From positions 124,001-188,000 of IMG/VR virus record IMGVR_UViG_3300032293_002041: a DNA stretch of 64,000 nt. The stretch is one strand, 5' to 3'. The translations under genes and the position numbers were made by a program. This stretch comes from a virus. Within the stretch, counting starts at the first letter, position 1. The number at the start of each line of letters is the position of its first letter. Shown here piece after piece: positions 21,701-60,899 of the stretch. The notes beneath the pieces are model-generated. The model had not been told where the DNA came from, did no database searches, and saw nothing but the letters and a program-made list of their open reading frames with translations.

Positions 21701-24700
21701 TTTCCAACAGCATCAATATTAAATCCTAAATCGTCTTGTTTACCAGATCCATTATATCTTGGACCCCTATACTTTAAATAACTCATCTCATAAGGAATAT
21801 TCACACCACCAATTGGTGTTGGAAGTTTTATTGTGTACGTTGCACTTTTTGGTCCAACCAACTCTTGTGAAAATCCAAATTTTTTGCCAGTTAAAGTTTC
21901 TTTTCTATCTTTGTCTATTTCAGCTTTTATTGATGTTAAGAATAGTGATGGGTCTGTGTCTCCTATCCATGGAAATTCTTTTTGTTGTTTCATACTATTA
22001 GTATCGTCTAATATTCCAATATCCATAGGAATATTTCCAGCCCAAGCTGGTTCTTGTTTAGCTCTTCCACTAAATGCTAGCTGTATTTTCTTAAATTGTG
22101 ACGCATTACGGAAAGTATCAATATCACGAATACTATTCAGTTTATTTATAATATCTTGATTATATTTCTTTTTAAGTAAATATAGCGTTGATATATTTTC
22201 GCTAGCTCCCAAACCATCAAAATCCAAACTAGAATCATTAGCTCCAAAAATTTCCATAGATGATCTATCATTATAGATATTACTTAATTTTTCAGCAGTT
22301 CTAGCAACTGATAAATTTTCAGATCCTTTTTCAAAGGTTGCCTTTGTTGGATCAATTGCAAAATCTAATGATTTTTGGAATGTTATTCTGTTTTCATTAT
22401 ATTTTTCTTTTAATGAAGAAGCATTTTTTTGTATCCATTCAGCGCCATTAGCTGAATAACTTTCTGGCGGCACAAATGTATCACCACCACCAGATTTTAT
22501 AGCAATACCCTTACTTGATGCATTAGTACTCACTATAGAATAAGATCTACCCAAACTACCACCCAGTCCAGCACCTCCAGCAGTACCAGCAGCTGCAATA
22601 GCTAAACCTAATGGTATTCCGGCACCTAATGTGCCGATTGAAATAGCCGCTGCCGATAAACCCGCCAAAGCTCCTACTCCGATACTAGCATTAGACAATA
22701 TTCCATAAATTTTTAAAATATCTTTAGTATCATCATCTGATGAAAAAGCGGATGGCTTAAATTCTTTATTTGTAGATAATATAAGACCAATTGGTTCAGA
22801 TGTTTGGCTAGTTGGCTTATACGGATCACCACCAACAGCAGATGGAGGATTTCCGTTAAAACTTCCTTCCGTATTCCATAAATTAGCTCTTAAAGTATTA
22901 TTATTAAATTCTATTAATTTTTCTCTATAAAATTTATTATAATCTTTTCTACTAACATGATCTTCGTTAAATGTATTGCTATTAGTAGCATTAGATAATA
23001 CAGCACCAAGTTGACCCATTTCGTTAACGTCAAAACGAGGATTGCTATTATCATATGCATAACCATTGGAAACCATTACTATGTTTGGAGCACTACCTGC
23101 CATGATAGCACTGTCTGAGTTAGCCTTAATACTACTCTTACCAGAATCATAAAAATCTGCTTCTGGTGCTCCTGCCTGAGATCTTATGGTTGTTCTGGGA
23201 CCTTTATAAACATACTTAATTAATGCTGTATTTAGATCATTCTTAACAAATTTTGGATCCAAATATTTTTCTTTTGTACTTTCTAAATTTTCAGTATCTT
23301 TAAATTCGTTTTTGGTTAAGTTAGACACATAGCCACCGGAAGCATAATACCTAACGGATCCACCGCCACTATACTTTTTACTATTAATAGCATTTAATAG
23401 TGGTAGATTAGCCTGTGTTGCTGCTCTATTAACCACAAATTCTCCAGGTGTTAACATTGCTGGAACAGTATCTGTTCCTTGAGGAGCAAAATCAATACCC
23501 ATGCCAGCAGCAGCATAAATTACTCCTCCGGATGCTTTACCAACAGGAGGATTTGGATTTTTTGGTATTTTAGCATTAATTTCAGAAACATGATTATTAA
23601 GATCTTTGAGTTGAGCACTATCGAAGCTTAACACTGTACCTTTAAGAGCATCAACTAAAGCCTTAGCCGATTTATTAGCAAGCTGATTTGATAAAGTTTC
23701 ATCCATTCGTGCTAATGATTGATTAGCTAGTGATTGTAAATTATTGGCTTGTTTATATTCTTGAATCGCTGATTGTGTTGCTGGATCAGCTTGTGGATTT
23801 CTTAAAGTATTAAGAACTTGCTGGAATATTGGAGAAACACCCACCCCAGATTCTTGCAACATGCTTTGTAATACATCGGCTTTTATGCTATTTCCTTGTT
23901 GAGAATTACCTAAAAACGGCAATATATCTTGTAGAGCACCAAGGGTCTCTTTTCTGTCATTAGCAAATGCTGCTTGAGCAGCTTTCATAGCTTCAAATCC
24001 AGAGGCACCCTGATCTATTGCTTCTCTATAGGCTTTTTGAGCACTTTGTGAATCTCTAATATCATTAATTTGTCCTCTCATATTATTATTTAGTCTAGCA
24101 AAAGCACCATTCAAAGAATTGAGTTCTTCTGGTGTACTTGTTACTAGTTTTTCAATAAAACTAACTCTTCCAGACTGTTTTTGTTGTGCTTGTTCTATTT
24201 TATCCATAGCTTCAGCGGCAACATCTGTACTTTCAGCCAACATTTTTAATGCTTCTATATTTTGTCTTAATGCTGTATTAGTACTAACCATCTCTGTTTT
24301 GAATTTAATAACATCCTCAGCTCCTGTTGCACCTCTAGCGCCAGCAGCATTAGATGCGACTTCTAGTGATTCACGTCTAGTATTTAACGAAAAAATATTA
24401 TTTTCAATATCAGTAATATTGGTAGATCCACCAGTAAGAGCAGATACTTTTGCGTCTCTTATAGTTTTTGCATTAGTTGAGTTATTGGTTTGTCCTAATG
24501 CTTTATTTAAATTAAGAGTTGCAGATAATTGAATATCTTGAGATTTTATTAATCTACTATTTCTACTAACTTGTAGATCTGTAATTTTATTAATATTATC
24601 GCTATACATATTAAGTGCATTTTGATAATTTTCTAATGCTTTTACGGCAATGTCTTGAGCTTGTTTTGCGGTATCTACAACTTTACTTAGTGAACCTAGT

Positions 24701-27700
24701 TTATTATTTAGATCAGCAAAATCAATTTTATTATCACCTTCTGTTCGCAATCCTTCTAATGCTTTAGATACTTCTTTACTTAGTTGATCTGATAGATCTG
24801 GTGGTAATGATAATCCTTCTAAAGCACTTTTAACTTCACGATCAACTTTAGTAGCCAGTACTTCGTTATTTATTCCTGGTCTTTCTCTTAAATTTTTATT
24901 AAGTGTTGACATTACTGTTGATTCTATAGTTTCGCCAACTCCTAATAATCCTTTCATTACTTTAGCATCAGCACCAAATAATGATGCAGCATCTCCTCTT
25001 GCTTTTTCAACCTCTGGCTCAGAATAAGCTCTTTGGTTTTGCAAAATATTTGCTGTTGCTATCTGCGACTTGCCAGTTTGAGCTTGTCCAGTAAGTGCCG
25101 AGGATAAAAGGTCAATATCATTTGTCATTTGACTAAGAGAGAAGCTAGCTTTGCCAATAGCTTGCTCCATATTAGCAAACATTCTTGTAAACGAACGACT
25201 GAAAGTATTAGTTGTATTCTCTAGATCTTTTTGTGCCAGAGCATTTTGTGTTGCTGCAATTTTTTTCCTTACCTCAGACTCAGCGTATGCTTGCATAACG
25301 CTAGCTTTCCTAGATTCTCTTTCTTTTTCTTCGATACCGATCATATTTTCTATGGTAAGTATTTCTTGTTCTGTAGCAGCATTTGATCGAGCTATTGCTT
25401 CTCTATGTAGCTTCCATTCAGCACTATTTTCACTTACTAATTCATTAATATCTGTTCCACTTTTAACTTTACTCTCAAGTAATTGCATTGTAGCATTAGC
25501 AGTATCAGCAAAAGCCTTTGAATTGGCTTGAGCTTCTGCTGGTATAAGTCTTTGAGTACTAGATTGTGTTGCTTGAGCTGCGGCTTCAGATGGATTAGTA
25601 AAATTACCACCTAACATTTGTCCATATGACGTAGTACGCATGTAGGCTATTGTTCCTTCTTTCTCCAAAATTTTTGACCTCGCAGCTGCTCCTTGATTAC
25701 CTTTATTTTCGAAAAAGAAAGCATCGAACATATTAACCCAAAATGCTTTTGCCGTATTTCTATCTATTGATAGACTATTTTTAACTTGATGAGTAGCGTC
25801 TAATAAATTCTTAGTAATTTCTTCTTGCAGTTTTATATTTTTAAGATCTGTACCAAGTTTTTCCAAACCTTTGGATACTTTTTCCAAACTTTCAGCCGCT
25901 TTGTTTGTTGCTAATTTTTTCTCAAATTCAATTGAAGCATTACGAGCATCCATAAAAGCTTGTCCAGCAGCTAGTGCCGCTGTAGTTAAGAGAGAAATTG
26001 GGCCTAGCAATCGAGTCATTGATGGAAACATTTCCATTATATTACTACCGATCATGGTACCAGTAGCCAACATATTTGTACCACCCTGCAAACCAGCAGA
26101 TAACTGAGCATTAGAAGAACTAGTCTCTGGATTAATCTGTTGTGCAATTAGTGAACCTGCCATTTGTAGACCAAAAGCCATGCCGATGCCTCTGGTAACA
26201 CCACTTCCTGCGCCGCCTCCGGGACCAGCTGCTCCGGCAGCCATGGCGGTGGCTCGTGCAGTATTGGCTCTATCTCTTGCTTCTTGTTCGGCCATGCGCA
26301 ATGCTTGAGCACTTAATCTGCGCATCGCATTTCTATCGCCAGACACACCTCGCTCCGCGGCCAACTGTTGTCTGATTTGAGCGGCTCTCTGCGGTATATA
26401 TGTCATGTCCATTTGAGCTAAAGTATTACGATCCTTCATACTCTGTTGAATATATCTTTGAGCATCATCTCCGGTTAAACCAACAGCACCAAGGTTGACT
26501 CGTCCACCAGTCACTTGAGTAGTTGCTTGTTCGTAAGATTGTCTATTAATTCTTCCTGCTCGTCTTTGTAGTCTTTCTTCAACTTGCTCATCAGAATATC
26601 TTCTTACTGTTGCTCCTCTACGAGTTCTAGTTTGAGATGCTAGTCTATTCCTCTCTGTTTCTGTCATTTGTTGACGTAATATATCAGCTCTAAAGTCTAT
26701 TTTTTGTAAGTCTTGTCCACCTAAACTACCTAAAGAAGCTCTAGCTCCACCCGGAGTATCTACAGATGCTCTTCTTGCTCTAATATCTCGGTCGGCTTGT
26801 TGTCTAATGTTTCTTAACATACTTTCGGCAGCAGCTATCTGTTGAGCAGAGGCTCCTGCTATTCTGGCTCGTCTAATATCGGCTTCTGTGGCTTGAATAG
26901 CTTGAGCGTAGGTTGCCTGAGTTCCTCTTTGCATAAGTCTTGCGGTATCTCCTGATGTGACACCAAGATCTTGTAATACTGTTGCTAGTTGTCCTAATTG
27001 CTCATTAACAGTATTAACTACTCCAACAACTCTTTGAGCTTCAGCATCATTCATTCCACCAAGATTCGGCCTAGCTGCTGGTGGTGGATTTAATAATCCT
27101 CCGATAAATAATCTTTGAACAGCTCCGCCAGTTGCAAACTCTTGAGTGCTAACTGGACCACCAACAGAACCACCATTCCTAAGTCCCAAAGCCTTAGTTG
27201 CTTTTTCTCTAATAATAAAACTACCAACCGGCAAATTAGCAGGAATACTATCACTAGTGCCAGTTCCTGGCCCCTTAATTACACTAATACCACCACTAGC
27301 AAAACGACTCATGCCATTACGGTCTGCTTTATTCATTTGTGCTAATTTACCGTATCCTATTGCTCTTGCTGTTTCTGGTGGAACATAGGCTTCTCCATTA
27401 CTAACTAGTGCCGGCACAGTATCCGAGGAATGTCCACCACCAGCAAATTGAGCCATGCCACCAACGGCATATTTTCTTCTTTTAATTCCAGCCCCACCCA
27501 ATAGTTCTGTTAATGTAGAATCTAATATTGATTGTAATCTATCGTCTAATCGTGGAAGATTTTCGATTAAAGTTGTTAAAAATTCTTCTTTGCCGCTATC
27601 TTCCATTCTATCAATAACTTCTTGAGTAGTTCCAAACTTTGGCCCTCCCTGAAGCAAGGCTTGGTTGATCTTGGGATTAATTGGCCTATACTCTCTGGCT

Positions 27701-30700
27701 CTTCTGGTAGTTCTAGCTTGCATATTCAACGCAGAGAGATCTTTTGTCATATCCACAGAAACAGGAGTAGCATCTCTAGAAGAATCACCCAGAGTACGGT
27801 AATAATTTGAAAGCATTTGATCCATAGATCTTGACTTATAACTCCTACCATATACAACATCAGCACTAGAATATCCACCATTTGCTGTCAAAGCATCAAA
27901 AGCATCAGCTAAATCATTATTATCTCCAGAAAATAAAGATGACACTCTGCTTCTATATCTATTAAAACTATCTGCTGATTTTGTTCTTAGTCCTTGAAAT
28001 AGCTGATGTGTCATTTCATGATACAGTACGTCGTTCTTAGTGTCGCTAGAGTATCCCATAGAGGAAGCAAAACTTAAGGTTCCTCGACCAGTAGTTGCGG
28101 AAATGGCTTGTTGCTCAGACAAAACCGACTTTTCTGCTGCAGATTTGACCTTTGATAATTCGAATGATCTCTTTTTTAAGCTGTCTAACTCACCATTAGC
28201 TTTCTGATATGCATTACTATCAAAAGAGAAACTACCGTCATCAAAAGTTTCAGTCGGTGTTTTGGTAATCTTCTTAATTTCTTTTTCTTTTGTTTCTATT
28301 AATTTTTTTAATCCATAAGCTTCTTGTTTTTGTTTTTCTCCATACCCAGATTTAGATAGATCATAACCTTCATACGGCCTAACTCCAGTTGCATCTCTTT
28401 GGAATTGAGCAGAGCCGTACCCGGATAGACCTCCTCCTCTTTTGCTTGCTCCGAAATCTAGTTGTAATGGTAGAGCAACAGTTAAATCTTCTTGTGGCAA
28501 TCCTACAAACTTAGCAAAATCTGACATTCTATCAAAGAGCGTATCGCGACTAATTTTTTCTTTGAATGATGCTGTAAATCTAGCCTTATCAAATGGTTGC
28601 TGAAAAGATTGTTTAACTTTATCATCATCAACCATTATTCTTTCATTTTTAGGATATTTATCCCATGCTAATTTAGCTCTTAAGTTTTCTTCAGCTGTTT
28701 GTTGGTCTTTAGCATAGGCCTTTGATATGCTAGGGGGAAATATAGTTTCTCCGGTTCCAAAAACTTCTTTTGGTTTTCTGGTTTTAGTTGCCGCTCCACC
28801 GGCCATAAATTTTTGAACCATTCCACCACGGTTTAACATTTTTACAGCCCAATCCATATTGAGCGATTCAAGAATGTTACCACCCTCCTCACTGTTGTCG
28901 TTAGCCTCTATATTTTTTACTTTAAATTTAGAATTTCTTGGTAGAATATATTCTACTTCTATATCATAATCGTCAGCATAATTTTCATCAGCTCTACCTT
29001 TGCCCAAAGAATCAGCAATGAGTCTCTGATTTGTTTTTCTTATTTTTGATTTGTCTCTGTTAATCGTATCTGTCTTGGCTCTCTCTGGATTTAATCCTTT
29101 GGCTTTTTTATTCGTTTCTATTGTCATCATGCCTGTTCTTGCAAAGCTTTCTGCTGTAGCTGGCACCTCTGAAGTAGACAAGAAAGAAGGGATGCTAACA
29201 GTTTTTCCAACTAGTTTTTTTGTATCTTCTAGTTTATTAACTTTTACGCCAGCTGATTCTATAAATAATTTTTGCTTACTAGCTCCTATGCCACTGTATA
29301 ATTTTTCTGGTAATGAAAATTGCATCGCAGCATCTAATGATCCAACAAAAGAAGATAGTGGCTTATCTACTGCTGGACCAAGCTTTTTCCTCTCTGTTTT
29401 ATTCAAACCTGACGTATCGGCTAATGACTGACTCAAGTCATCTTTCTTGCCAAGAGCAGTATTAATAGCTGAATCTAAGCCTATTGCCTGATATGCTCTA
29501 ACGGCATCTAACATATCGCTAATGCTATAGCCTTTATTAGCAGCTAGCCTTTGAGAATCTTTTCCCTTTAGTTTTTTAACTTTGTCGATATATTCAATAT
29601 CTTTTTCTAGAGAACCCACAGACACATCAATATATTCTCTATTCGGAGCGAAACTAACTATGCTTTTTGGTCCAACCTTATCCATATTCTGTTGTTTATT
29701 TCCCGGTCCCAAATTTCCCTTATATGCTTTATTTAGTGCTTGTTTAACAACACCATCATAATTTCCTGTTATATCATATATTTGATTTTCTTCAATTAAC
29801 GACTTAAGATAGTCAGAAATGCCAGATGGAGCTTTGGGTAAAACTATTTCTTTTTTGGTCTTTTCTTTTTTTTGCGGAGTTTTGCTAGCTAAAAACTCTT
29901 TGATAGAAGATATTCTTTCTTTAACTTCTCTGATTCCAGCATCTTCCATGAAAGGGGCTGATTTACTAAATGTACTAACTGGAACCTTTCTTTGAAAACC
30001 AAATAAGTCCAATGTAGAATCGAGCAAAACTAGTTCTTTATTAAGGTCTTTTGGTGACTGCTGCTGCATTCTTTTAACCCAGCCACCATCAATAAATCTT
30101 TGGATCAAACCACCACTATTTTTAGCTTGTGCTACTCCACCAGCCATAAAGCTTTGAACAGCTCCGCCATTATTAAAGCCTTTCACATTTTTAAGATATG
30201 TAACAATATTATCTTTTATGGTTGATGGACCAGCTAGTGTTCTCTTAACATCAGTTGGTATATTAGGAGGTAGTTTTGGTTCGAATTTTTGTGAGACTCT
30301 ACCAAGACCAGTCATAAAATCAAATCCTCTACCCTTTGGAGATCCTACTGCCCCTAATCTTCTTATAAATGCTTCTAATAAACTACCTTTAAGTGATTCT
30401 ATATCTTCTAATGATTGTGTATCTTCTTTTAGCTTTTTAACTCCTCTATATCTATAAACATCAATTCCTTCATCGGCTCTTTTCCTAGCAACAGATGTAT
30501 TTCTTTTGTCGTCATCAACGAAAATAGATCCTGGAGTTAGTTCTGCCGCTTTAAGTTTTGCAATATCCGATCCTGAAACGTTTGGTCCACCAAATCCTTT
30601 GAACTGGCCAGCTTGTATTGGCAAACCTTTGCTAGTTAACCATGTTTGAATTAAAGGAAGTGTAGCTTTTGGTCTTGCTGTTATTACTCGTATGTTTTTT

Positions 30701-33700
30701 AATAGTTCTGGTTTTTTAGCTACTAAAGACGCTAACTGACGACCTAGTACACTTAGTTTAGCTTTACCCAGAGCCTCGGTCACTTTGGCAGTATCCGAAA
30801 ATTCACTAAATCTTGGTTGCTTCGGATCTGCTAAAATTTTATCAGCACCAAAAGCTAATGTTCTATCAAAATCTAGTGCTAGTTCTCTACCAGACTCAAA
30901 TCCTCCCAATATCATTCCAACTCTTTTCTTTTGAGCAGTCATCTCTGATCGTTTTTCTTTTTGAGCTTGTTGCATTGGTATAGTGCCAATAGCTTTATCA
31001 AAACTAGCATCTATGCTACTAGCTCTTTTTTGATTTTTATATATTCCACTATAAATACTGACTGTATGTTGTTTAGTTGGATCTTTTAATCTATTATCTT
31101 GTATAGTTTGAGTTACTGGTTGGGCTGCAAATGCACTTCCAAATAGTCCAGCAGCACCAAATACTAATCCTTTAGCTGTTGCTTTATTTCGTTTTCTTGT
31201 CTCGCTAGCTTCTGCTTTCTTTGCTAATGAGGTTTTTTCTTTTGTAAATTCTGCTAGAATAGCAGCTTTACTTGCTGCTTGTTGTGGTGTGGGTTTGGTT
31301 GTTTTTAAAGCGGTATATACATCTGTTGCTCTAATACCTCCAACAGCAGCTGCTCTCTCTATGCCCAAGAGTTTAATAATGTCTCCGGTTGAAGCTTTGA
31401 CTGCTGGAGTTGCTGTGCCTCCTTCTTCAAATCTTTGAGTAGCCCCACCAGAAGATCTTCCCAGTCTCTCAATTTTAGGAAGCATTCTAGCGGCTCTTCG
31501 TCCTAAAATCGCTTCGTCTCTATCTCTCTGTTCCCTTAGATACTTAACTCTTTCTGCAACATCGAGTGGCGTTTTTGCAGTAACACGAGCTGGTAGCGTT
31601 GATAGTTCAGCAAGTGTTGATGAGTATCTTCCTGCTCTTCCTCTTCCTTTCTGGGCATTTTCTTCTATTCTTTTAAGAATAGCATCTAATAGTTTTGGTC
31701 TTTTTTGTATCGTCGCCATATAAGGCTTTAAATAAGCTATTCCTTCTGGAGTCAGAAGTTTTTTCATAGCTTCAACATCATTGCTCATAATGGCTGCTCT
31801 AGCAGCAGTACCGCTAATTCCGTCTCTGGCTATTTGTATTGACTTATAGCCCAGAGAGAGATTTCTACTCACAGCAGCGTCTGTTTTATCATCCCCCATA
31901 TATGCAACATTACCATCGCCTTTTGGAACAATATAGGAGTCTTCTTGTCCTTCAATCTTAAAGGCCTTAGGAAAAACTCCTGGAGCAATTCCTTTTGGCG
32001 CAGCTGAGATGTTGAATCCTTTTGATCCTAAGACTGCTTGAGCCATTCCTACTGCTGATGGCCCAGTAGATGATGTTTGAGGCAAAATTGCTGTTCTTTC
32101 TTTCTGGTCATCTCTATTAAAAGGATCTATAGGAGTATTTCCAGAAATATATATCACAGTGTCTTCTGGACTAATTTTACTTTTCTTAGCCCCTTGCATA
32201 ATTGCTTCGACATGACCAGCTGTGGTTGGTCTTAAAGCTCCTTGAAAGACTGCTGTTTTTTTCGGAGTTCTTACATTTGGAGCACCAATTCTTTTACCAG
32301 TTGCAACATCGGTTGTTATAACCCTTTTGGGATCAACCCCAGAAACTTCAGAAGCTGCTAACCATGCTTCATCTATGCCGGTATCAACGGGTGCGCTCTT
32401 AGTAGCTCCTGGTTTGCGCTTAAATAGTCCGTAGTTACGTCCAGATGGATCAGGTATTCCGGATTCTGATCGTCTGTCTCTATCATCTCTTCTAACTAAA
32501 ATTGCATCTTGACTAGCTTTAGATCTACTAGAAAGATTTCGTATTCTATCAGACGCTATTAAAGAAGCAGCATTTCTAGGACCCAATACTGAAGTTGTAT
32601 CAATAACTTCATCTAGTCCTTCTAAGTCACTAGGAACTCGTATGGCTTTTCTAGTTGTCTTGCGGAGTCTAGCATTATCTGCTTCTTGAGATCTTGAACC
32701 CCCGTAAGCTGCTGTAGTTTTACCACTTGCGGCAACCCCAAAAACGGTTCTTAGTCTGCCTATAGCTCCAGACTTTCTTCTTTCCGCTACTAGATTCGAC
32801 ATATAAACTTTATATTCATCGAGCTTAGCAATGCCCATCATTTTCATTTGAGCAGCAACGATTGGATCTTCTTTCCAGTCATCAGAATCAATAATTCCAA
32901 TAGTACGAGTACGACTAACTGGTTTTACTTCTCCACCAATGGGAAATCTCTGAATAGATCCACCAAGATTTCTTCTGCGAGATATTGCTAGTTCTGTAGC
33001 TTTATCATAAGCTCTTTCTTCTCTTCTTCGAATATTTCTTGGATTTTGACTTAATCCAGTTAATTTTTGAGTAGATTCCTGTCTGTCTTGGGTTCCTTTA
33101 CGATCCCCTCTCGCTATCCTTTTCCAGACAATATCTGCTCTATTTTCTAAATATAGTTGTTTATCTGCTGATAATAGAGGCCAAAAATTATTAGGAATAT
33201 TTTTAAGATCTGAATCTTTTACTAATGGTTTCTTAGGAATTTTTTTTGTAATAGTATTAGCAAAAATTTGGGACGTAATACCATATGCCAGATCCGATAA
33301 CTTTATTCTATCCAACGATCTTCTACTGCTTTTTTCTAAATGACCAGACAATAAAACTTTCGGATGACTTATCATCCAAGCAGCAAGTTTAGATGAAATA
33401 GTCCCTGAGCCAGAAGACTTCAATGCTTGGTTTGTTAATGTTGGTAAACTAAGTAGTATTGGAGATTTTTGTGATATTCCAATTTCATCAATAATACTTT
33501 GTAATTGTTTATTGCTTGCTTCAGATATATCTGGTATCTTAAATTGTTTTTGCGCAACATCAAGACTGGGTGTAAGTTTACTGGATCTAGTGGGGGTATC
33601 TCTTGAGATACTTGAGCCTTTAGCCCTGACCTTTCTATTTAAATATTCTCTAAATTGAGCTGGGGTTAGTGGGGTGCTATTTCCGAAATGGGCCAGGTCT

Positions 33701-35988
33701 GTCTTACCTGGATACTCTTTCCATGATTCAAGGGCATTATCTGGTGGTTTTTTCTTATTTTTAGATTTTACACTTTTTACTATTCCTGATTGATTAGTAG
33801 GATTTCTTTGGTTAAATCTTTGTATATCTGATGAATATCTATTCACAGAGGAACTAGGAGTAATTCCTCCGCTATTCCTATTCAAAGAGTGTAAATTACT
33901 AACCCCAATATTTTGTACAGCGCTCTTTCTCATGACAAACTCGCCAGGAGTTAACTTTGCAGAAACAGTGTCTCCATTACCAAAACCAGTAACATATCCA
34001 CCAGCAGCAAAATGTCGAATTGGACCACCCTCAGAGGCTCTTTGTGTCGGCGCTCCTCTAAATCCTCTTCCAAAACCACCAGCAAACTGAGTAATAGCCT
34101 GAGCACCTCTAAGTGCTGCAAATAATCCAACGAGAGGAATCAAGCCTTTAGCAGCATCTGCGACCTTTATTAAAGCGCTAGCTAAATCTAATCCAACTTT
34201 AACTATATTTTGGAAACTATCAGTATTACCAACACTTCTAATTAATGCTAAAAATTCTTGTCTAACTTTTGCTATTTGAATAGCCAATGCCATCTGACCC
34301 TTAGCAGCATCATCGGCTAGAGATCCTTGTCCTTGCTGGGCGATTTTTAAAGCTTCTTGTGCCGTAGAAAATTGTTGAATAAGTGGTAATACTTTACCAA
34401 TCTGTCGAAATCCACCAAGTTCTTCAACTATCTGAGAAAATTTAAGATCTCTGGGATCTAATCTGGATAATCCTTCGCTTAATCTTTGAACGGCAACATA
34501 TGGTCCAACGAATTTACCTTCTAAATCAGTTAATGTTACTCCAAATTCTTTTAGAGCTTCAATAGTATCTCCTCTCTGAATTCTAGTAAAAATTGTTCTT
34601 AATCCAGTTGCAATAGTCTCAGCGCTTTCACGAGTTGTGGCTCGTATACTAGTAAATACAGCAATGAATTCATTTAAAGCTTCTGTTCCTTCACTAACTC
34701 CTCTACTAGAAGCAGCAAATACACCGCCGGTACGCTGAATTGCGGTAATAATATCGCTAGCTTCTACGGCGAATTTAGCGGCAACGGAGTTGATAGATCC
34801 TAGAGCACCCTCAAGTTGTGAGGTAGTAATGCCAAACTGTCTCATTAAAGCAATAGATCCTTCTACAGTTTGATTCATATCATCAAAGGATGGAGCCAAA
34901 GCACTAAGAGCTAATGCTTTAAGTGCTCTTTCAGTATCTCTGGCTGTTAGTCCGGCCTGAGCCAAAGTAACAGTAGCTGTTGTTAGCTCATTTGATGAGA
35001 CACCAAAAGAGGTTGATAAATCATTAACTGTTTTTGTAATATTTGCTAGATTCACTTTTGTATCACCAGTAACCTGGCTAATTCTAGTTAATTGAAGATC
35101 ATAGTCTATAAAAGCACTAATGCCATTTTTAATAGCGTTTGTGATACCATAAATAACACTAGTTACTGCGCTAAAAGCAGCAAAACGCCTGACAGCCAAA
35201 CCAGCTTGTCTTCCAAAGTTTTCAATTTCATTACCCGCTAGACCTACATTATTAGCGGCAGTTCTAGCGGCATTACCAGCATTTCCTAAATTAATATTTA
35301 TATTTCCTAGGTTAACTCTACTAGCAGCCCCCATAGCCGCTGTTAATGATGCAATAGAAGCTGCTGCGCTAGAAGCGGAGGTTGCCGTTTGTACCAATAC
35401 TCCATTCAAAGTTCTTAAATTTGCGGTATATGTTCCAATACCTCTTAATGAGGCTGCATTAATTCCAACATTAACAGTTGCGTTAATAGAACCTAGTTGT
35501 CTACGAATATTTGACGCTACTTGTCTTATGGATGCTGCTGAAGCATTAATATTAACACTAGCATTTATATTGCCTAGTTGTCGTCTTATTGCTGAAGATG
35601 CTTGTCTAATAGAGGATGTTGACGCATTTACTGTCACATTAGTACTGATATTTTTAAATTGAGATCTTATATTTGCTGCTGATCTTCTAATTGATGAAGC
35701 GTCTGCTTTTACTTGAACATCTGAGGTTATTGTGCCGAGCCTTTGTCTAATATCTCTAGATAGATTTCTGACTGAGCCAGCATTAACTCTTACATTTATT
35801 TCTGCCGATAAATTACCAATCTGTCTTCTTATGTCATTTGCAATAGCTCTCACAGAAGCACGATTAACTGTAGGACTAACATTAACACTAACTGATCCTA
35901 CCTGTCTTTTAATATCAGCAACAACCGTTCTAATATTAGACGGTCCTCTTAAATTAATTTCTGCGGTTAAATTAAATCCTTTGGCCAT
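12787..35988 (-). CDS. Giant modular tail tape measure protein (7733 aa)
   Basis: The tape measure protein sets tail length and is ejected at infection. Residues 18-179 are six 27-residue repeats; residues about 250-640 are the TP901-1-type tape measure core, with hydrophobic segments following. Then come modules: P-loop G1084-T1091 and nucleotidyltransferase G1250-H1259 with ISGTAAR at 1391; HAD D1706/D1708, T1770, D1825-1827; ADP-ribosyltransferase-like STS at 2271-2273 and ExE at 2344-2346; HEMTH at 2657-2661; long coiled coils 2960-4150; EF-hand loops at 5411 and 5793; HELGH at 6783-6787. GG-x-x-QRF linkers and nine DTVPA-LTPGEF cassettes separate them. The C-terminus returns to an amphipathic helix. 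Start ATG at 35988 follows AAAGGA. At 0.15 nm per residue it would span about 1.16 micrometres if fully extended. Tape measure identity is secure; activities are predictions. Confidence 0.95.
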   Translation of the reverse strand: MAKGFNLTAEINLRGPSNIRTVVADIKRQVGSVSVNVSPTVNRASVRAIANDIRRQIGNLSAEINVRVNAGSVRNLSRDIRQRLGTITSDVQVKADASSIRRSAANIRSQFKNISTNVTVNASTSSIRQASSAIRRQLGNINASVNINASAASIRQVASNIRRQLGSINATVNVGINAASLRGIGTYTANLRTLNGVLVQTATSASSAAASIASLTAAMGAASRVNLGNININLGNAGNAARTAANNVGLAGNEIENFGRQAGLAVRRFAAFSAVTSVIYGITNAIKNGISAFIDYDLQLTRISQVTGDTKVNLANITKTVNDLSTSFGVSSNELTTATVTLAQAGLTARDTERALKALALSALAPSFDDMNQTVEGSIALMRQFGITTSQLEGALGSINSVAAKFAVEASDIITAIQRTGGVFAASSRGVSEGTEALNEFIAVFTSIRATTRESAETIATGLRTIFTRIQRGDTIEALKEFGVTLTDLEGKFVGPYVAVQRLSEGLSRLDPRDLKFSQIVEELGGFRQIGKVLPLIQQFSTAQEALKIAQQGQGSLADDAAKGQMALAIQIAKVRQEFLALIRSVGNTDSFQNIVKVGLDLASALIKVADAAKGLIPLVGLFAALRGAQAITQFAGGFGRGFRGAPTQRASEGGPIRHFAAGGYVTGFGNGDTVSAKLTPGEFVMRKSAVQNIGVSNLHSLNRNSGGITPSSSVNRYSSDIQRFNQRNPTNQSGIVKSVKSKNKKKPPDNALESWKEYPGKTDLAHFGNSTPLTPAQFREYLNRKVRAKGSSISRDTPTRSSKLTPSLDVAQKQFKIPDISEASNKQLQSIIDEIGISQKSPILLSLPTLTNQALKSSGSGTISSKLAAWMISHPKVLLSGHLEKSSRRSLDRIKLSDLAYGITSQIFANTITKKIPKKPLVKDSDLKNIPNNFWPLLSADKQLYLENRADIVWKRIARGDRKGTQDRQESTQKLTGLSQNPRNIRRREERAYDKATELAISRRRNLGGSIQRFPIGGEVKPVSRTRTIGIIDSDDWKEDPIVAAQMKMMGIAKLDEYKVYMSNLVAERRKSGAIGRLRTVFGVAASGKTTAAYGGSRSQEADNARLRKTTRKAIRVPSDLEGLDEVIDTTSVLGPRNAASLIASDRIRNLSSRSKASQDAILVRRDDRDRRSESGIPDPSGRNYGLFKRKPGATKSAPVDTGIDEAWLAASEVSGVDPKRVITTDVATGKRIGAPNVRTPKKTAVFQGALRPTTAGHVEAIMQGAKKSKISPEDTVIYISGNTPIDPFNRDDQKERTAILPQTSSTGPSAVGMAQAVLGSKGFNISAAPKGIAPGVFPKAFKIEGQEDSYIVPKGDGNVAYMGDDKTDAAVSRNLSLGYKSIQIARDGISGTAARAAIMSNDVEAMKKLLTPEGIAYLKPYMATIQKRPKLLDAILKRIEENAQKGRGRAGRYSSTLAELSTLPARVTAKTPLDVAERVKYLREQRDRDEAILGRRAARMLPKIERLGRSSGGATQRFEEGGTATPAVKASTGDIIKLLGIERAAAVGGIRATDVYTALKTTKPTPQQAASKAAILAEFTKEKTSLAKKAEASETRKRNKATAKGLVFGAAGLFGSAFAAQPVTQTIQDNRLKDPTKQHTVSIYSGIYKNQKRASSIDASFDKAIGTIPMQQAQKEKRSEMTAQKKRVGMILGGFESGRELALDFDRTLAFGADKILADPKQPRFSEFSDTAKVTEALGKAKLSVLGRQLASLVAKKPELLKNIRVITARPKATLPLIQTWLTSKGLPIQAGQFKGFGGPNVSGSDIAKLKAAELTPGSIFVDDDKRNTSVARKRADEGIDVYRYRGVKKLKEDTQSLEDIESLKGSLLEAFIRRLGAVGSPKGRGFDFMTGLGRVSQKFEPKLPPNIPTDVKRTLAGPSTIKDNIVTYLKNVKGFNNGGAVQSFMAGGVAQAKNSGGLIQRFIDGGWVKRMQQQSPKDLNKELVLLDSTLDLFGFQRKVPVSTFSKSAPFMEDAGIREVKERISSIKEFLASKTPQKKEKTKKEIVLPKAPSGISDYLKSLIEENQIYDITGNYDGVVKQALNKAYKGNLGPGNKQQNMDKVGPKSIVSFAPNREYIDVSVGSLEKDIEYIDKVKKLKGKDSQRLAANKGYSISDMLDAVRAYQAIGLDSAINTALGKKDDLSQSLADTSGLNKTERKKLGPAVDKPLSSFVGSLDAAMQFSLPEKLYSGIGASKQKLFIESAGVKVNKLEDTKKLVGKTVSIPSFLSTSEVPATAESFARTGMMTIETNKKAKGLNPERAKTDTINRDKSKIRKTNQRLIADSLGKGRADENYADDYDIEVEYILPRNSKFKVKNIEANDNSEEGGNILESLNMDWAVKMLNRGGMVQKFMAGGAATKTRKPKEVFGTGETIFPPSISKAYAKDQQTAEENLRAKLAWDKYPKNERIMVDDDKVKQSFQQPFDKARFTASFKEKISRDTLFDRMSDFAKFVGLPQEDLTVALPLQLDFGASKRGGGLSGYGSAQFQRDATGVRPYEGYDLSKSGYGEKQKQEAYGLKKLIETKEKEIKKITKTPTETFDDGSFSFDSNAYQKANGELDSLKKRSFELSKVKSAAEKSVLSEQQAISATTGRGTLSFASSMGYSSDTKNDVLYHEMTHQLFQGLRTKSADSFNRYRSRVSSLFSGDNNDLADAFDALTANGGYSSADVVYGRSYKSRSMDQMLSNYYRTLGDSSRDATPVSVDMTKDLSALNMQARTTRRAREYRPINPKINQALLQGGPKFGTTQEVIDRMEDSGKEEFLTTLIENLPRLDDRLQSILDSTLTELLGGAGIKRRKYAVGGMAQFAGGGHSSDTVPALVSNGEAYVPPETARAIGYGKLAQMNKADRNGMSRFASGGISVIKGPGTGTSDSIPANLPVGSFIIREKATKALGLRNGGSVGGPVSTQEFATGGAVQRLFIGGLLNPPPAARPNLGGMNDAEAQRVVGVVNTVNEQLGQLATVLQDLGVTSGDTARLMQRGTQATYAQAIQATEADIRRARIAGASAQQIAAAESMLRNIRQQADRDIRARRASVDTPGGARASLGSLGGQDLQKIDFRADILRQQMTETERNRLASQTRTRRGATVRRYSDEQVEERLQRRAGRINRQSYEQATTQVTGGRVNLGAVGLTGDDAQRYIQQSMKDRNTLAQMDMTYIPQRAAQIRQQLAAERGVSGDRNAMRRLSAQALRMAEQEARDRANTARATAMAAGAAGPGGGAGSGVTRGIGMAFGLQMAGSLIAQQINPETSSSNAQLSAGLQGGTNMLATGTMIGSNIMEMFPSMTRLLGPISLLTTAALAAGQAFMDARNASIEFEKKLATNKAAESLEKVSKGLEKLGTDLKNIKLQEEITKNLLDATHQVKNSLSIDRNTAKAFWVNMFDAFFFENKGNQGAAARSKILEKEGTIAYMRTTSYGQMLGGNFTNPSEAAAQATQSSTQRLIPAEAQANSKAFADTANATMQLLESKVKSGTDINELVSENSAEWKLHREAIARSNAATEQEILTIENMIGIEEKERESRKASVMQAYAESEVRKKIAATQNALAQKDLENTTNTFSRSFTRMFANMEQAIGKASFSLSQMTNDIDLLSSALTGQAQTGKSQIATANILQNQRAYSEPEVEKARGDAASLFGADAKVMKGLLGVGETIESTVMSTLNKNLRERPGINNEVLATKVDREVKSALEGLSLPPDLSDQLSKEVSKALEGLRTEGDNKIDFADLNNKLGSLSKVVDTAKQAQDIAVKALENYQNALNMYSDNINKITDLQVSRNSRLIKSQDIQLSATLNLNKALGQTNNSTNAKTIRDAKVSALTGGSTNITDIENNIFSLNTRRESLEVASNAAGARGATGAEDVIKFKTEMVSTNTALRQNIEALKMLAESTDVAAEAMDKIEQAQQKQSGRVSFIEKLVTSTPEELNSLNGAFARLNNNMRGQINDIRDSQSAQKAYREAIDQGASGFEAMKAAQAAFANDRKETLGALQDILPFLGNSQQGNSIKADVLQSMLQESGVGVSPIFQQVLNTLRNPQADPATQSAIQEYKQANNLQSLANQSLARMDETLSNQLANKSAKALVDALKGTVLSFDSAQLKDLNNHVSEINAKIPKNPNPPVGKASGGVIYAAAGMGIDFAPQGTDTVPAMLTPGEFVVNRAATQANLPLLNAINSKKYSGGGSVRYYASGGYVSNLTKNEFKDTENLESTKEKYLDPKFVKNDLNTALIKYVYKGPRTTIRSQAGAPEADFYDSGKSSIKANSDSAIMAGSAPNIVMVSNGYAYDNSNPRFDVNEMGQLGAVLSNATNSNTFNEDHVSRKDYNKFYREKLIEFNNNTLRANLWNTEGSFNGNPPSAVGGDPYKPTSQTSEPIGLILSTNKEFKPSAFSSDDDTKDILKIYGILSNASIGVGALAGLSAAAISIGTLGAGIPLGLAIAAAGTAGGAGLGGSLGRSYSIVSTNASSKGIAIKSGGGDTFVPPESYSANGAEWIQKNASSLKEKYNENRITFQKSLDFAIDPTKATFEKGSENLSVARTAEKLSNIYNDRSSMEIFGANDSSLDFDGLGASENISTLYLLKKKYNQDIINKLNSIRDIDTFRNASQFKKIQLAFSGRAKQEPAWAGNIPMDIGILDDTNSMKQQKEFPWIGDTDPSLFLTSIKAEIDKDRKETLTGKKFGFSQELVGPKSATYTIKLPTPIGGVNIPYEMSYLKYRGPRYNGSGKQDDLGFNIDAVGNREFLPDSNKFVYLIQSGGTSKNPFKNLDNNTHSYFKGNAELLETDIFNPLNLVNDPNIQNLITSINNPNAPLNQDDIIAKIRNTTASIDLESYLKSSNRPDGVNDNINVFANNNPIGKVDIPIGDFLSDIIPQLLEARKNKAKESGQTVVNAQSRSTPLTNLVQNFPKITRGALSLFGRRKIPGFANGWLFNDIRGLPGVGGRPVRNDLDATEASRYIAGVFNEAATDVSQLSNMANSPQQYQNMKESYLLLSGAYSAFDGIASGNTRFLQSVTNGAEGNFETAFRSLGMGMAFQQAASRQLSEDFKSQIAGQLKGTKIASIGADGSIQYQDFKDQVPKDYNDLVSLGLNPYNEFANTNTRTTLINKLGYDISIGRDSSGMSYYDPRTLAFITSNLKILRSWYGGENKWPGQDSFFDQGSDPKTRTIKLITSLSTPEGVDLRNKASVANRDLGLSSTYGDIPDINYFTEKMMANATIPTFKANGGMIYASEGQFVNFQPRGTDTVPAMLTPGEFVVNAKSTAQNLPLLRSINNGGVKGLSKGGVAYLSEGGISHRSMNPLTGDRTLEKGDDLGKKYRINSGIYDYLTLETKMPDWLTSLNNLSFDANSMRFFSDASFYKALTQIREATDLRSLQDLSYDFVKGFKYRDYNKDNRLSGFDFTTHLSKTDGILGLIDPDVGGDFQPKDLVKWRTTKAKLKAKSSAARVVKNLTPDLENLRDILSDQKPAGENNNPEFKNRNHYESPAALLNIVVSQWKKERQQEKNRLKSQQVLEQYIQQSQTPMRPYLDRNFDDINVASVVKDILTKQKTPDTENLVSWLENTELAKSTAEKIQELLPARKASDLTGQESSRLELLGIELPPGDKVADASTLIDTVKNLIKNGPEAFMIGMEGETKRSKGKSLIYSLLAQSARIQGINNLIKARALFSGSDASVRKTAYGDMARVDSNTVYKDQTRTPENFRGREDNVARPGQFKLGIMHDRLIEPVKDAAIPGSGPNGKETSAERTERKNRARMANGRGRSAIRDLDLWDDNKDGKISFTEYNRRFLGSRDPKAKSFKVETAERKILFDKIDVNKKNGFIDPAEFPNMVGKPLRYADIDTEREGKELGDTLGTQRDRRGSQKLAYDKIDKAIISSVKSLFKEDFQKLYPDSFTKASEYLEENIASPRIKKLEGISEPTQKRQILADLASDQNNRDWGLFVKAEEELDYLRIKIKQDPYLFPRLVNKAYTKDLTRPQDILHNANINYDNTLDKSGWATINKADVFETIWQDYKLSSSNYSNLDSLEKTYRLKNELNSKEMAEDQQRSEEAEKLITKARDRRKYKKDLTKKTLRGLSVPESYFEDRVYTKLWRGKYKDYYDVPDPTLAGHIDMYNTLIPFGEDGRLSKPTEEQENDFYKKVNNGSTRKKVIYASNGMLIPYQPRGTDTVPAMLTPGEFVVNARATARNLPLLHSINEGSAPGYSNGGIVYLADGAQVGVPSPQKSAKTSSDFRTEQEKIRYTRETAYRLSKVDKTSQNTENLSEGIAGGNREILSVARSVLSSMTTNTKNKNSNSSSRINPNLKNNTIPDLDNDNRFNKIDSDNNILLQTLNSMKDLLYSQKLDALGNTKKIIAVIYDLFNGSNFRGALGKNQVKNLNNEATNAANLFNSGGIVYASNGQLMPYSPRGTDTVPAMLTPGEFVVNRSATRANLPLLQTINSSNGGLINYLSDGGMSTLDASIQKDFRDSMTDAKAARFAAMSEEKFTDIFKRGLTKRDNALRHEANLNAMVERIREGRKSGIGDAPQKSALAQQMMFLRDGRRRPVPSEKMLKKWSYIDALAGRKRQDGGHISVPPVRASENEIAAFLNSLGRRNVKPIQGPAMPPPVRRENNAVSEVLTDLAIERGKSSPRRMYEYLSLAKPFLGDSPTPLETGLSNKDYVNSPAFQEALGRRDTMVNIENRFEREDAKKTLGHKLLKYTSGDKGRAALNKILTGARYKNATMRVGDTGMTPVGDGDLGRTERTTGNIVFNKPLISRGLVDHELGHTIQGALPPDKQSQLTGGGDGKIATLPSAVRSFVLKMAKDPEYQAINTYPGHSLMGKKKDEIFPVMLQVMDKPLFNKHGGESALRAMMKVMGFNKGGVVYAADGGMPGPLTKLDTRRKEKLEEEYTKKIKDEEIKALGFLGLPPDPTPEQMEEVLGRNSEKAKKLIEQAIVKANGKPYTHRINKEYNIKLPRFPRLTEELRKRSWPLVKEQEKPNPFEIPVKEDPLNPTKPFDANEPRVYYKGKPIVTKANGGVIYASTGTLVNYQPRGTDTVPAMLTPGEFVVNAKATEQHLPLLHAINNGQKYMSKGGILYAQEGAVVGAGLPNDEKEMNRKKRERMALAGIDPKNRTEEQQGRLEKLRTETGWYSDDNVARREKNTRIALAGIDPKKRTDEQEKKLKNLRGSDPTWDEANNKNVERKQRLQEERMKDEKSRTNLDNKYINDFLLSGAENAEEWFTNNLPGIKQPRLEGLIQKIEEMKAQGVKEGIKDKVKLGNLENKYIRDYLESGSDDAESWFGENYPGLRGARAEAVIEGAMQQQKQNNGNASDDLVGVKVPVKEREISGENEATVPAEVPAVQGKSSDADKQTMEQNKAEKDKKAKDRQAELQYYKNNSSPFMSLYTKLSKEVEENPERFELFNPNAIRDELKVEDIVKERRSKWEDLAGDAKASKAKALFDTDLETFKVLNNMTANAQEGLDILDQYPAGKGRQIKNRPILFILQKQLQAGSIAAQNLDQAWNILRVNDQLQFKSQAAPSNTNVVDAVPDSAGGIIYANNGMMIPYSPRGTDTVPAMLTPGEFVVNRSATQANLPLLRAINNNRYANGGQVGAVNYLYTGGQATSEAGGGGGVSNNNRSESTSLNFDGLSKFTTKFEAFIGQLQSINPIINMQGTHTVVVEFGASASVFKGMEEGLQRYVVSQVNAALNNVNNTLNNSIEGSIDRVQYIA
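13117..13323 (-). repeat. DTVPAMLTPGEFVVN cassette, copy F
   Basis: GGIIYANNGMMIPYSPRGTD (G7573), LTPGEFVVN, NLPLLRAINNN and YLYTGG. Last copy, followed only by the C-terminal amphipathic helix of the tape measure. Confidence 0.9.
14020..14640 (-). repeat. Two pairs of internal repeats near tape measure C-terminus
   Basis: ALAGIDPKxRTxEQxxxLxxLR occurs twice (about 14550-14625 and 14425-14500), then NKYIxDxLxSGxxxAExWF occurs twice (about 14212-14320 and 14030-14140). Both pairs are charged and helical. They look like two separate local duplications placed one after the other. Confidence 0.75.
14681..14877 (-). repeat. DTVPAMLTPGEFVVN cassette, copy E
   Basis: GGVIYASTGTLVNYQPRGTD (G7055), LTPGEFVVN, NLPLLHAINNG and YAQEG. 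A half copy (GGVVYAADGG, about 15310-15340) lies upstream without the LTPGEF core. Confidence 0.9.
15349..15879 (-). other. HELGH metallopeptidase-like module inside tape measure
   Basis: Residues about 6704-6880. GLVDHELGHTIQGALP gives an HExxH zinc site at H6783, E6784, H6787. A Glu in KKDEIFP about 70 residues later could be the third ligand, as in gluzincins, but this is a guess. It differs in flanking sequence from the HEMTH module, so the two are not simple duplicates. Confidence 0.58.
15880..16560 (-). other. GC-rich, probably imported segment within the tape measure
   Basis: Four consecutive 60-base lines (16201-16440) have about 47, 48, 55 and 50% GC by hand count, against about 25% for a line at 17041. 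The stretch encodes residues about 6477-6703, Arg-, Met- and Pro-rich and helical, with no recognised domain. It begins just after cassette D and leads into the HELGH module, so it may be part of one transferred unit. Confidence 0.65.
16567..16755 (-). repeat. DTVPAMLTPGEFVVN cassette, copy D
   Basis: GGIVYASNGQLMPYSPRGTD (G6429), LTPGEFVVN, NLPLLQTIN and YLSDGG. The GC-rich island starts within about ten bases of its end. Confidence 0.9.
17284..17479 (-). repeat. DTVPAMLTPGEFVVN cassette, copy C
   Basis: IYASNGMLIPYQPRGTDTV (G6186), then LTPGEFVVN, NLPLLHSIN and YLADG. Followed by a short (about 170 residue) Asn/Ser-rich module. Confidence 0.9.
18577..18612 (-). other. Canonical EF-hand calcium loop in tape measure (second)
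   Basis: Residues 5793-5804 read DDNKDGKISFTE, a full match to the EF-hand pattern (D1, N3, D5, G6, I8, E12). A degenerate partner begins at D5835 (DVNKKNGFIDPAE), 42 residues on, a spacing typical of paired EF-hands. Confidence 0.7.
19723..19758 (-). other. EF-hand-like calcium loop in tape measure (first)
   Basis: Residues 5411-5422 read DYNKDNRLSGFD. Positions 1, 3, 5 and 12 carry acidic or amide ligands and position 8 is Leu, as in an EF-hand loop, though position 6 is Asn instead of Gly and position 12 is Asp. Confidence 0.5.
20047..20250 (-). repeat. DTVPAMLTPGEFVVN cassette, copy B
   Basis: GGMIYASEG, QPRGTDTVPAMLTPGEFVVN (G5264), NLPLLRSINNGG and YLSEGG. Starts the EF-hand-bearing module. 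Confidence 0.9.
22555..22692 (-). other. Hydrophobic Gly/Ala segment in tape measure
   Basis: Residues about 4433-4478 form a long uncharged stretch of Ile, Gly, Ala and Leu (starting IGVGALAGLSAAAISIG) long enough for two membrane passes. Such segments in tape measures are thought to help form the channel through which DNA crosses the membrane. It lies inside an otherwise unrecognised module (residues 4222-5240). Confidence 0.6.
23332..23529 (-). repeat. DTVPAMLTPGEFVVN cassette, copy A
   Basis: About 66 residues: GGVIYAAAG, then a short proline-containing stretch, GTDTVPAMLTPGEFVVN (first Gly 4171), NLPLLNAIN and a closing YYASGG. At the DNA level the central 42 bases are around 80% identical among the six well-kept copies. 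It separates the coiled-coil rod from the next module. Confidence 0.9.
23539..27111 (-). other. Long helical/coiled-coil central rod of the tape measure
   Basis: Residues about 2960-4150 are rich in Ala, Gln, Glu, Lys and Arg with heptad-like spacing and almost no glycine clusters, as expected for the rod that fills the tail tube. A hydrophobic Gly/Ala segment at about residues 3263-3346 (25951-26202), including GPISLLTTAALAAGQAF, could insert in a membrane during ejection. No enzyme motif is visible here, in contrast to the flanking modules. Confidence 0.6.
27170..27462 (-). repeat. Two diverged DTVPA cassettes of the tape measure
   Basis: Adjacent diverged copies read SDTVPALVSNGEAYVPPE (about 27380-27440) and TSDSIPANLPVGSFIIRE (about 27195-27270). 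They match the motif more generally seen in phage tape measures (SDSIPA-LSNGEYV) better than the LTPGEFVVN copies in the C-terminal half, so they may be older copies. Confidence 0.7.
27469..28791 (-). other. HEMTH metallopeptidase-like module inside tape measure
   Basis: Residues about 2400-2840. VLYHEMTHQLFQG places an HExxH zinc site at H2657, E2658, H2661 on a hydrophobic helix. A third ligand is not obvious from sequence alone. The module sits between the linkers at 2388 and 2843, the latter running directly into a diverged DTVPA cassette. Possible roles are cell-wall, periplasmic or self-cleavage proteolysis. Confidence 0.55.
28831..29841 (-). other. Possible ADP-ribosyltransferase module inside tape measure
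   Basis: Residues about 2050-2386. The hallmarks of R-S-E class ARTs appear in order: FLSTSEVP with S2271-T2272-S2273, and EVEYILPRNSKF with E2344 and E2346 (ExE) followed by the usual LPxxxxF strand. The expected N-terminal Arg seems replaced: the matching stretch reads KLYSGIG with S2232. Activity is therefore uncertain; the fold assignment rests on the two later motifs. Confidence 0.5.
30409..30921 (-). other. HAD-superfamily phosphatase-like module inside tape measure
   Basis: Residues about 1690-1860 contain the ordered HAD motifs. Motif I is LALDFDRTLAFG with D1706 and D1708, motif II is VITARP with T1770, and motif IV is FVDDDKRN with D1825-D1827. Spacing fits a HAD phosphatase with a short cap, comparable to the phosphatase half of polynucleotide kinase-phosphatases. 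Both catalytic aspartates are intact. It lies between the linkers at 1514 and 1941. Confidence 0.75.
31450..32931 (-). other. P-loop plus nucleotidyltransferase module inside tape measure
   Basis: Residues about 1020-1513, between two linkers. A Walker A motif GVAASGKT is at 1084-1091. A nucleotidyltransferase signature GALRPTTAGH is at 1250-1259, equivalent to the GxxxPxxxGH of NadM/CoaD-type adenylyltransferases, and the matching second motif ISGTAAR is at 1391-1397, like the ISSTxxR motif that binds phosphate. The two motifs are about 135 residues apart, as in that family. The kinase part is shorter and less certain. Nothing similar is expected in an ordinary tape measure. Confidence 0.62.
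33868..33985 (-). repeat. First, diverged LTPGEF cassette of the tape measure
   Basis: Residues about 668-707 read GDTVSAKLTPGEFVMRKSAV followed by a helix and a GG. It is the first copy, directly after the core domain and the linker at 654, and before the first non-core module. Confidence 0.75.
34069..35241 (-). other. TP901-1-type tape measure core domain
   Basis: Residues about 250-640 of the tape measure protein carry the conserved core of phage tail tape measure proteins: a run of helices with the ISQVTGD, FGVSSNEL, TLAQAGL and IFTRIQRGDTIEAL stretches, followed by a hydrophobic GLIPLVGLFAALRGAQAI segment. This is what identifies the whole protein as a tape measure and not a fibre. Confidence 0.88.
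35452..35937 (-). repeat. Six 27-residue N-terminal repeats of the tape measure
   Basis: Residues 18-179 are six head-to-tail copies of 81 bases, each of the form SxRxxxxxIRRQLGxIxAxVNV. Each likely folds as a short helix followed by a strand. A seventh partial copy (SLRGIG) follows. The period is constant and the frame is kept. They lie ahead of the tape measure core, the end that usually contacts the tail tip or hub. Confidence 0.85.
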
Positions 35989-45093: not shown

Positions 45094-45136
45094 AATTAAC
45101 TCCAGTGTTTAATATTTAATACCCCGTTAGGATAGT

Positions 45137-59868: not shown

Positions 59869-60308
59869 GAGCTACACGTTCCACAATCATTCTGTACATT
59901 GCTATCACAACCAAAAACATCATCCCCTGGCACATTTCTTGAAATTAATCCTATATTTCCTTGAAGAATACGAAATATTTTTTTACCACCACCAGTATAT
60001 AAATCATTAGGTTCTTGTAATTCAAAATCATATCTAGCAGATCCGAAGGAGTAGATAGCAGTTTGAGATGCTGGTATTTTTAGTATGATCTTACCGATCT
60101 TAGGATCAATAGTGAACTCATATTCTGCTGTTCTATTATTTGTTGAGAAAGTTCTTATGTTTGGTTGTGGTGCTTGGTCCTCTATCCATCTTATTCTAGC
60201 ACACCAATTAGTAATATCTATTGGAATATTTTGATCATCTCTATATTCAAAAGCAATTACAAATGCTGTGCCTTTTTCTATAGTAAAATTATAGTCAGCT
60301 GCTGGCAT
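59865..60308 (-). CDS. Beta-sandwich adaptor-like virion protein (147 aa)
   Basis: A 147-residue protein of a widespread phage style: FTIEKGTAFVIAFEYRDDQN, PIDITNWCARIRWI, then a YDFELQEPNDLYTGGG strand followed by a short strand containing LQG. Similar proteins, with an N-terminal domain like the BppU baseplate protein, attach fibres to virions. It is encoded directly upstream of, and overlaps by four bases (ATGA), the giant fibre gene, so it may anchor that fibre. C-terminal residues CDSNVQNDCGTC have paired cysteines. AAGGA precedes the ATG. Confidence 0.82.
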   Translation of the reverse strand: MPAADYNFTIEKGTAFVIAFEYRDDQNIPIDITNWCARIRWIEDQAPQPNIRTFSTNNRTAEYEFTIDPKIGKIILKIPASQTAIYSFGSARYDFELQEPNDLYTGGGKKIFRILQGNIGLISRNVPGDDVFGCDSNVQNDCGTCSS

Positions 60309-60323
60309 GTTAATAGTCCTTGT

Positions 60324-60839: not shown

Positions 60840-60899
60840 AATTTGATCCTTTTATGGGTATTTGTGGCTGTTCTTTAATACACCCAACCACCACTTAAA

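Follow-up and report, generated by a model that had tools for sequence, protein, structure and literature searches.

A giant phage tape measure protein with enzyme-like modules between repeated linkers

The length of the tape measure protein sets the length of the tail in known phages, and in phages other than the one described here the protein fills the tail tube and exits ahead of the DNA. Some tape measures, such as those of the mycobacteriophage TM4 type and YomI of SPbeta, carry one lytic domain. Injected phage proteins are, to our knowledge, known almost only from heads. T4 Alt, an injected ADP-ribosyltransferase (ART) that modifies the host early, is a separate protein carried in the head.

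Unrelated enzymatic domains have been described together in huge virion-associated proteins, termed polyvalent proteins, that are presumed to enter the host along with the DNA (Iyer et al., 2017; PMC5512222). NAD/ADP-ribose enzymes have been found packaged in phage heads (PMC9503650). In other phages, ARTs and related enzymes are reported to travel in the head and to be injected (PMC5512222, PMC9503650), and the main texts of both papers make no mention of tape measures. In the open PMC papers that we searched, the nearest systems to the one analyzed here are the polyvalent head proteins and the Sle1-type effectors, which belong to contractile injection systems of actinobacteria (PMC13277306).

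The tape measure protein that we describe resembles polyvalent proteins in combining ART-like, putative zincin-like peptidase, and nucleotide-related domains in one huge protein (PMC5512222). Polyvalent domains have been described in the setting of heads or of transfer (MuF, portal, and N4-type RNAP among others), whereas here the carrier is a tail tape measure, and the modules lie between repeated linkers and are shuffled at them. As with Sle1-type effectors, a tape-measure-derived carrier would bear exchangeable effector domains in a tail-like tube (PMC13277306, PMC11126660), but those effectors are bacterial and have one variable functional domain, whereas this protein is encoded in a phage genome and has many internal modules between its conserved cores. 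It resembles the TM4-type and YomI tape measures in having a TP901/PhageMin_Tail core with accessory enzyme-like domains inside (its homology to YomI, at 24%, is confined to the core), but it holds several nucleotide- or protein-modifying folds, none recognisably lytic, in an interchangeable order. An ART-like domain and its putative delivery are shared with T4 Alt, although the first-motif Arg that is expected in Alt is absent here. The conserved delivery part and recombining cassettes recall polymorphic toxin systems, but here the modules are internal and multiple. None of the open PMC papers that we searched describes a tape measure with several enzymes; subscription literature and preprints lay outside the scope of this search, and priority is uncertain.

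The tape measure protein and its linkers

We analyzed a stretch of 64,000 nucleotides (the window) from the 228,972-base virus record of an uncultured aquatic jumbo phage. All features of the carrier protein lie on the minus strand of the window and are given with residue numbers and window coordinates. The carrier is an ORF of 7733 codons (12787..35988) that is free of internal stops. It matched the tape measure profile TIGR01760 at 87.8 bits (cut-off 28.8) and the TP901/PhageMin_Tail profile PF10145 at 86.9 bits (cut-off 33.2; E 2e-24), and no other match to PF10145 was found in the whole virus record. Both profiles and several tape-measure PHROGs match within the first 640 residues. This part contains an N-terminal core (residues 1-627; 34108..35988) with profile matches at residues 279-589 and 47-86% identity to the first relatives found. 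The long ORF lies inside a tail gene block: tail, baseplate, and fibre PHROGs have matches among the genes at 41792-47670 and 59865-63998. On the strength of these profile matches and this setting, we conclude that the 7733-aa protein is a tape measure protein.

Comparison with relatives delimited a middle region (residues 2965-4160; 23509..27096), whose conserved core spans about residues 3350-4160, and a conserved C-terminal segment (residues 7625-7733; 12790..13116). A first variable bay lies between the N-terminal and middle cores. A second (residues 4220-7562; 13303..23331), which is cut up by DTVPAMLTPGEFVVN linkers, includes a hydrophobic Gly-rich stretch at residues 4424-4462 and an EF-hand-like stretch at about residues 5787-5809 that is flanked by DTVPAMLTPGE linkers. 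Residues 5315-6175 (about 17464-20046), which include the EF-hand-like stretch, are 61% identical to the tape measure of one relative (G008), and that of another (G006) also gave weak EF-hand matches.

Two sheath profiles gave no match above cut-off in the phage's own genome, and one of the two gave none in seven relatives; the tail is therefore likely to be non-contractile. We considered the moraphages as a lineage for this virus but did not equate the two, as contractile tail proteins and no tape measure are reported for moraphage (PMC12619734). Elsewhere in the tail region, a 4061-aa ORF (47683-59868, minus strand), whose sole family match is a weak one to a tail-fibre PHROG, contains an 87-base tandem repeat at 54776-54938 and probably encodes a giant fibre or adhesin. 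The ORFs at 45137-46522 and 63099-63998 each match phrog_3545 and baseplate-wedge PHROGs, and are possibly duplicated tail-tip genes.

The protein is cut into intervals by GG-x-x-[QR]-x-F-x-x-GG and DTVPAxLTPGEF elements. A preliminary description of this DNA, made by a model from the letters and ORF translations, had placed near-identical short GG-QRF-GG linkers within 27129-34029. Our pattern searches located these linkers, in the form GG-x-QRF-x-GG, at residues 654, 1009, 1514, 1941, 1959, 2388, 2843, and 2954, in agreement with that description. Its outer coordinates are also right, as 34029 corresponds to residue 654 and 27129 to residue 2954. A strict form of the pattern, GG..[QRKY].[FYL]..GG, has 12 matches in the protein, compared with a mean of 0.116 and a maximum of 2 in 500 shuffles. 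The first linker is GGPIRHFAAGG followed by DTVSAKLTPGEF (residues 654-705; 33874..34029), and it is followed by GGSIQRFPIGG (residues 1009-1019; 32932..32964), GGATQRFEEGG (residues 1514-1524; 31417..31449), a double linker GGAVQSFMAGG...GGLIQRFIDGG (residues 1941-1969; 30082..30168), and GGMVQKFMAGG (residues 2388-2398; 28795..28827). The series ends in a linker block of GGMAQFAGGGHSSDTVPAL...DSIPANLPVGSF...GGAVQRLFIGG (residues 2843-2963; 27100..27462) that is itself matched by tape-measure PHROGs. The linkers are short and predicted to be disordered; that at residues 2388-2398 falls in a stretch with pLDDT below 50 in the AlphaFold model. The pattern of linkers and modules extends beyond 27129-34029, where it takes in a second HExxH module as well as the EF-hand-like stretch.

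Enzyme-like modules in the intervals

Each enzyme motif named in the preliminary description was found in its own interval between linkers. The first of these modules (PNT; residues 1020-1513; 31450..32931) joins a P-loop (GVAASGKT, residues 1084-1091) to HIGH-type nucleotidyltransferase (NTase) motifs (PTTAGH, with TAGH at residues 1256-1259, and ISGT at residues 1391-1394), all of which are kept in 10 relatives down to 26% identity. The combination T.GH + ISGT..R is the signature of the HIGH-superfamily nucleotidyltransferases, and it is conserved here within a predicted NMNAT/NadD-like fold: an AlphaFold (AF2) model had pLDDT mostly of 80-92 over residues 1027-1175 and 1204-1418, and Foldseek matched it to NMN/NaMN adenylyltransferases (NMNAT/NadD, probability 1.00) and to viral cytidyltransferase-like folds (E 4e-5 to 3e-4). 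We rejected a NadR-type arrangement, in which the NTase is followed by a ribosylnicotinamide-type P-loop kinase, because here the P-loop precedes the NTase. A PNT profile search of the genome contigs found no relative.

The HAD module (residues 1525-1940; 30169..31416) has the four motifs of HAD phosphatases (DxDxT, S/T, K, DD), which occur as DFDRT 1706, TARP 1770, K1813, and DD 1825 and are invariant in nine relatives; a simple HAD motif screen was passed by 27 of 31 copies. Most of the catalytic part had pLDDT of about 75-89 in the AF2 model of this module, and Foldseek matched the model to the HAD hydrolase 2go7 (probability 0.99) and to a phage polynucleotide kinase/phosphatase (probability 1.00, E 4e-4).

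The HEM module (residues 2399-2842; 27463..28794) carries HEMTHQ 2657 and a downstream E2802. This zincin-type motif, HE.[TG]HQ with the downstream E, is invariant in 17 HEM sequences. The AlphaFold model is mostly helical, with pLDDT of 83-97 over most of its length and HExxH on a helix; no solved zincin was among the matches listed by Foldseek for this model. The second HExxH module lies in the second bay (residues 6475-6881; 15346..16566), where HELGH 6783 is followed by a later E[IV]F; HE[LYF]GH and E[IV]F are shared with two relatives (G014 and L028). Further HExxH motifs (HEAIH, HETFH, and HESFH) occur in the tape measures of L088, L085, and L138, in modules that are unrelated to HEM by the profile used.

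The module between HAD and HEM (residues 1970-2387; 28828..30081) had been described as ART-like, and this assignment stands in part. It passed the Pfam cut-off for PF03496 (28.7 bits against 23.4), a profile search linked it to iota toxin Ia (E 0.0012) and to Vis, and the Ser and the two Glu residues of the R-S-E class are invariant (STS 2271, ExE 2344/2346). The Arg of the triad is missing: the first motif reads LYSG 2230, and Ser, Ala, Thr, or a similar residue replaces the Arg in 17 of 17 members. The AlphaFold model of the ART core had low confidence (pLDDT of about 25-70), because a shallower alignment was used for ART and HExxH, from which distant ART rows had been left out as they were misplaced onto the HExxH motif.

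The best E-values in Foldseek searches against the PDB were 0.003-0.015, with probabilities of 0.99-1.00; searches of the PDB with single interval sequences returned no usable match, and NCBIfam has no name for the modules. A tblastn search of 50,697 phage records (INPHARED isolates) with the modules as queries gave no match. One further module, without an assignment (residues 707-1008; 32965..33870) is 51% identical to L002 only.

The proposal that the tape measure is built as a multi-enzyme chain is thus borne out as far as the carrier and four separate enzyme-like modules between linkers are concerned, with motifs conserved down to 26-30% identity and with confident predicted folds for all except ART. 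The intervals might instead have been disordered, or their motifs misplaced; the P-loop, NTase, HAD, and HExxH parts are predicted to be confident globular folds, and their motifs are conserved. With P-loop/NTase, HAD, ART-like, and HExxH modules in one polypeptide, the protein agrees with polyvalent proteins in having at least two domains of disparate biochemistry per polypeptide, and its injection with the DNA might be expected from its identity as a tape measure.

Exchange of modules between related phages

A search of IMG/VR with the N-terminal core found 38 relatives when a single sequence was used and 235 when an alignment was used, and 73 distinct relatives formed the comparison set. 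The N-terminal core, middle core, and C-terminus are common to most of them, and the intervening parts are variable; complete related proteins span 2438 to 7795 aa. HAD is present in 31 of the 73, PNT in 25, ART in 15, and HEM in 16; short HAD matches of about 100 aa, which represent the C-terminal tail of the module, were left out of these counts. Among proteins with several modules, at least 12 different orders were seen. These include PNT-HAD-ART-HEM (window), PNT-ART-HAD (L002), ART-PNT-HAD (G004), ART-HAD-PNT (L160), HEM-PNT-HAD (L088), HEM-ART-PNT-HAD (L073), ART-HAD-ART (G008), and ART-PNT-HEM (L177); L085, L157, and L151 were counted as ART-HEM-PNT and HEM-PNT because just the C-terminal tail of HAD follows PNT.

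Placement between the N-terminal core and a detected middle core was seen for 70 of 88 module copies, and the other 18 include those in fragments without a visible middle core. PNT, HAD, and ART were found only inside the tape-measure frame and never as free genes (12 related genomes, some of them fragments), and none of the 59 module loci lies in an open frame shorter than 1679 aa. In 26 of the 73 relatives, the part seen is free of all four modules, indicating that the cargo is dispensable. Other modules of the relatives mostly had no Pfam match. The six core-bearing genome contigs are metagenome-assembled and binned to various phyla. An SHD1 domain (PF03983, 35 bits, above cut-off) lies inside L055:9458-13660 (minus strand), the G019 tape measure; this domain is otherwise known from cellular proteins, and may hint at the host lineage.

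A second subfamily is represented by L114, a complete 2590-aa tape measure (PF10145; 2202-9971) with an ART module set between linkers of its own. Stretch 733-1031 of L114 gave a further match, to the C-terminal part of a PHROG for a head maturation protease, which suggests that ARTs may sit on other virion proteins too.

Modules can be far more alike than the proteins that carry them. The ART module of the window is about 88-89% identical to that of G004 and 80% identical to that of L005, whereas the cores are about 60% identical, and dS was 0.28 in the ART module, compared with 1.41 in the core. At the 5' junction of ART, which crosses residue 1970 at the end of the double linker, 72 of 72 nt across the linker are identical between the window and G004. 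The similarity ends just upstream of this linker on one side and inside the next linker on the other. A HAD-HEM block is likewise 94% identical in L165 and L090, compared with 52% for their cores. We collected 85 homology ends from 44 module pairs whose similarity exceeded that of their cores by 8 points or more (not all pairs are independent); 73% of these ends lay within 15 residues of a linker, compared with 20% for random positions. Estimates of dN/dS were about 0.14-0.25 in the modules compared.

These comparisons show, at the level of sequence, that recombination within linkers or close beside them has added, removed, and rearranged modules among related phages, and that the modules have been kept under purifying selection. 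That the linkers are sites of module exchange between phages goes beyond the preliminary description.

Possible roles of the modules

We propose, with a probability of roughly 60%, that the tape measure is a cassette carrier: a polyvalent-effector strategy would have been moved into the tail, and interchangeable enzyme cassettes would reach the host as infection begins. The bay between the N-terminal and middle cores would hold independently folding, linker-bounded modules. Because the tape measure of other phages occupies the tail tube and exits ahead of the DNA, these modules would be likely to reach the envelope or cytoplasm of the host at the very onset of infection, and could act there before phage gene expression. 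The P-loop with its NMNAT-like transferase, the HAD module, and the ART-like module together would point to nucleotide, NAD, or RNA-end chemistry, which may serve host takeover or counter-defence, and the HExxH domain might act as a protease on host targets or on its own chain.

The modules might instead be pseudo-enzymes that serve mainly as spacers, adding length to the tape measure and through it to the tail, their catalytic motifs being relics. The spread in size of the related proteins (2438 to 7795 aa), the dependence of tail length on the tape measure in known phages, and the loss of the first-motif Arg from every ART member would all suit this idea. Spacers have no need of catalytic residues, however, and nearly every copy retains the P-loop, T.GH, ISGT, all four HAD motifs, and HExxH..E, even where identity has dropped to 26-30%. 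Given also a dN/dS of about 0.2, and that confident globular domains would make poor rulers, we consider this explanation unlikely.

It is improbable that the domains act on their own virion rather than on the host, with HExxH cutting the linkers and the nucleotide enzymes acting on the packaged DNA end. A role in morphogenesis should be conserved, but each module is missing from most relatives and the order is free. Such self-processing would nonetheless fit the two HExxH modules in this chain and the predicted disorder of the linkers, and zincin-like peptidases have been proposed to process polyvalent proteins (PMC5512222).

An action on peptidoglycan or periplasmic proteins, like that of lytic domains in tape measures, appears more improbable still. 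Single lytic domains have precedents in tape measures and metallopeptidase-like motifs would suit cell-wall or periplasmic targets, but lysozyme, amidase, and NlpC/P60 had no Pfam match anywhere in the chain, and the one PHROG named endolysin matches merely a linker block. P-loop, adenylyltransferase, and ART folds would lack a periplasmic substrate; we know of none there for folds that use ATP, NAD, or nucleotides. Fusion of separate genes by sequencing or assembly error, which a very long ORF from a metagenome might suggest, is ruled out by independent contigs, in which the same design recurs in uninterrupted frames in dozens of independent metagenomes.

The cassette-carrier reading can be widened to the tape measures of a widespread lineage of aquatic jumbo phages, which would form a general, reloadable effector-delivery platform: cassettes would be swapped at the linkers into the two cargo bays of a conserved carrier, and each phage would inject its own set of nucleotide- and protein-modifying enzymes before the DNA, by a route distinct from that of the head; we judge the chances of this broader proposal to be even. 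If cassettes are carried in this way, the tail would be a second route for protein delivery beside the head, and the length of the tape measure would no longer be a simple readout of tail length. The natural linkers would mark sites that tolerate foreign domains, which makes the idea directly testable. The bays could also be mined, across hundreds of metagenomic phages, for enzymes of early takeover and counter-defence, of which they would form a catalogue.
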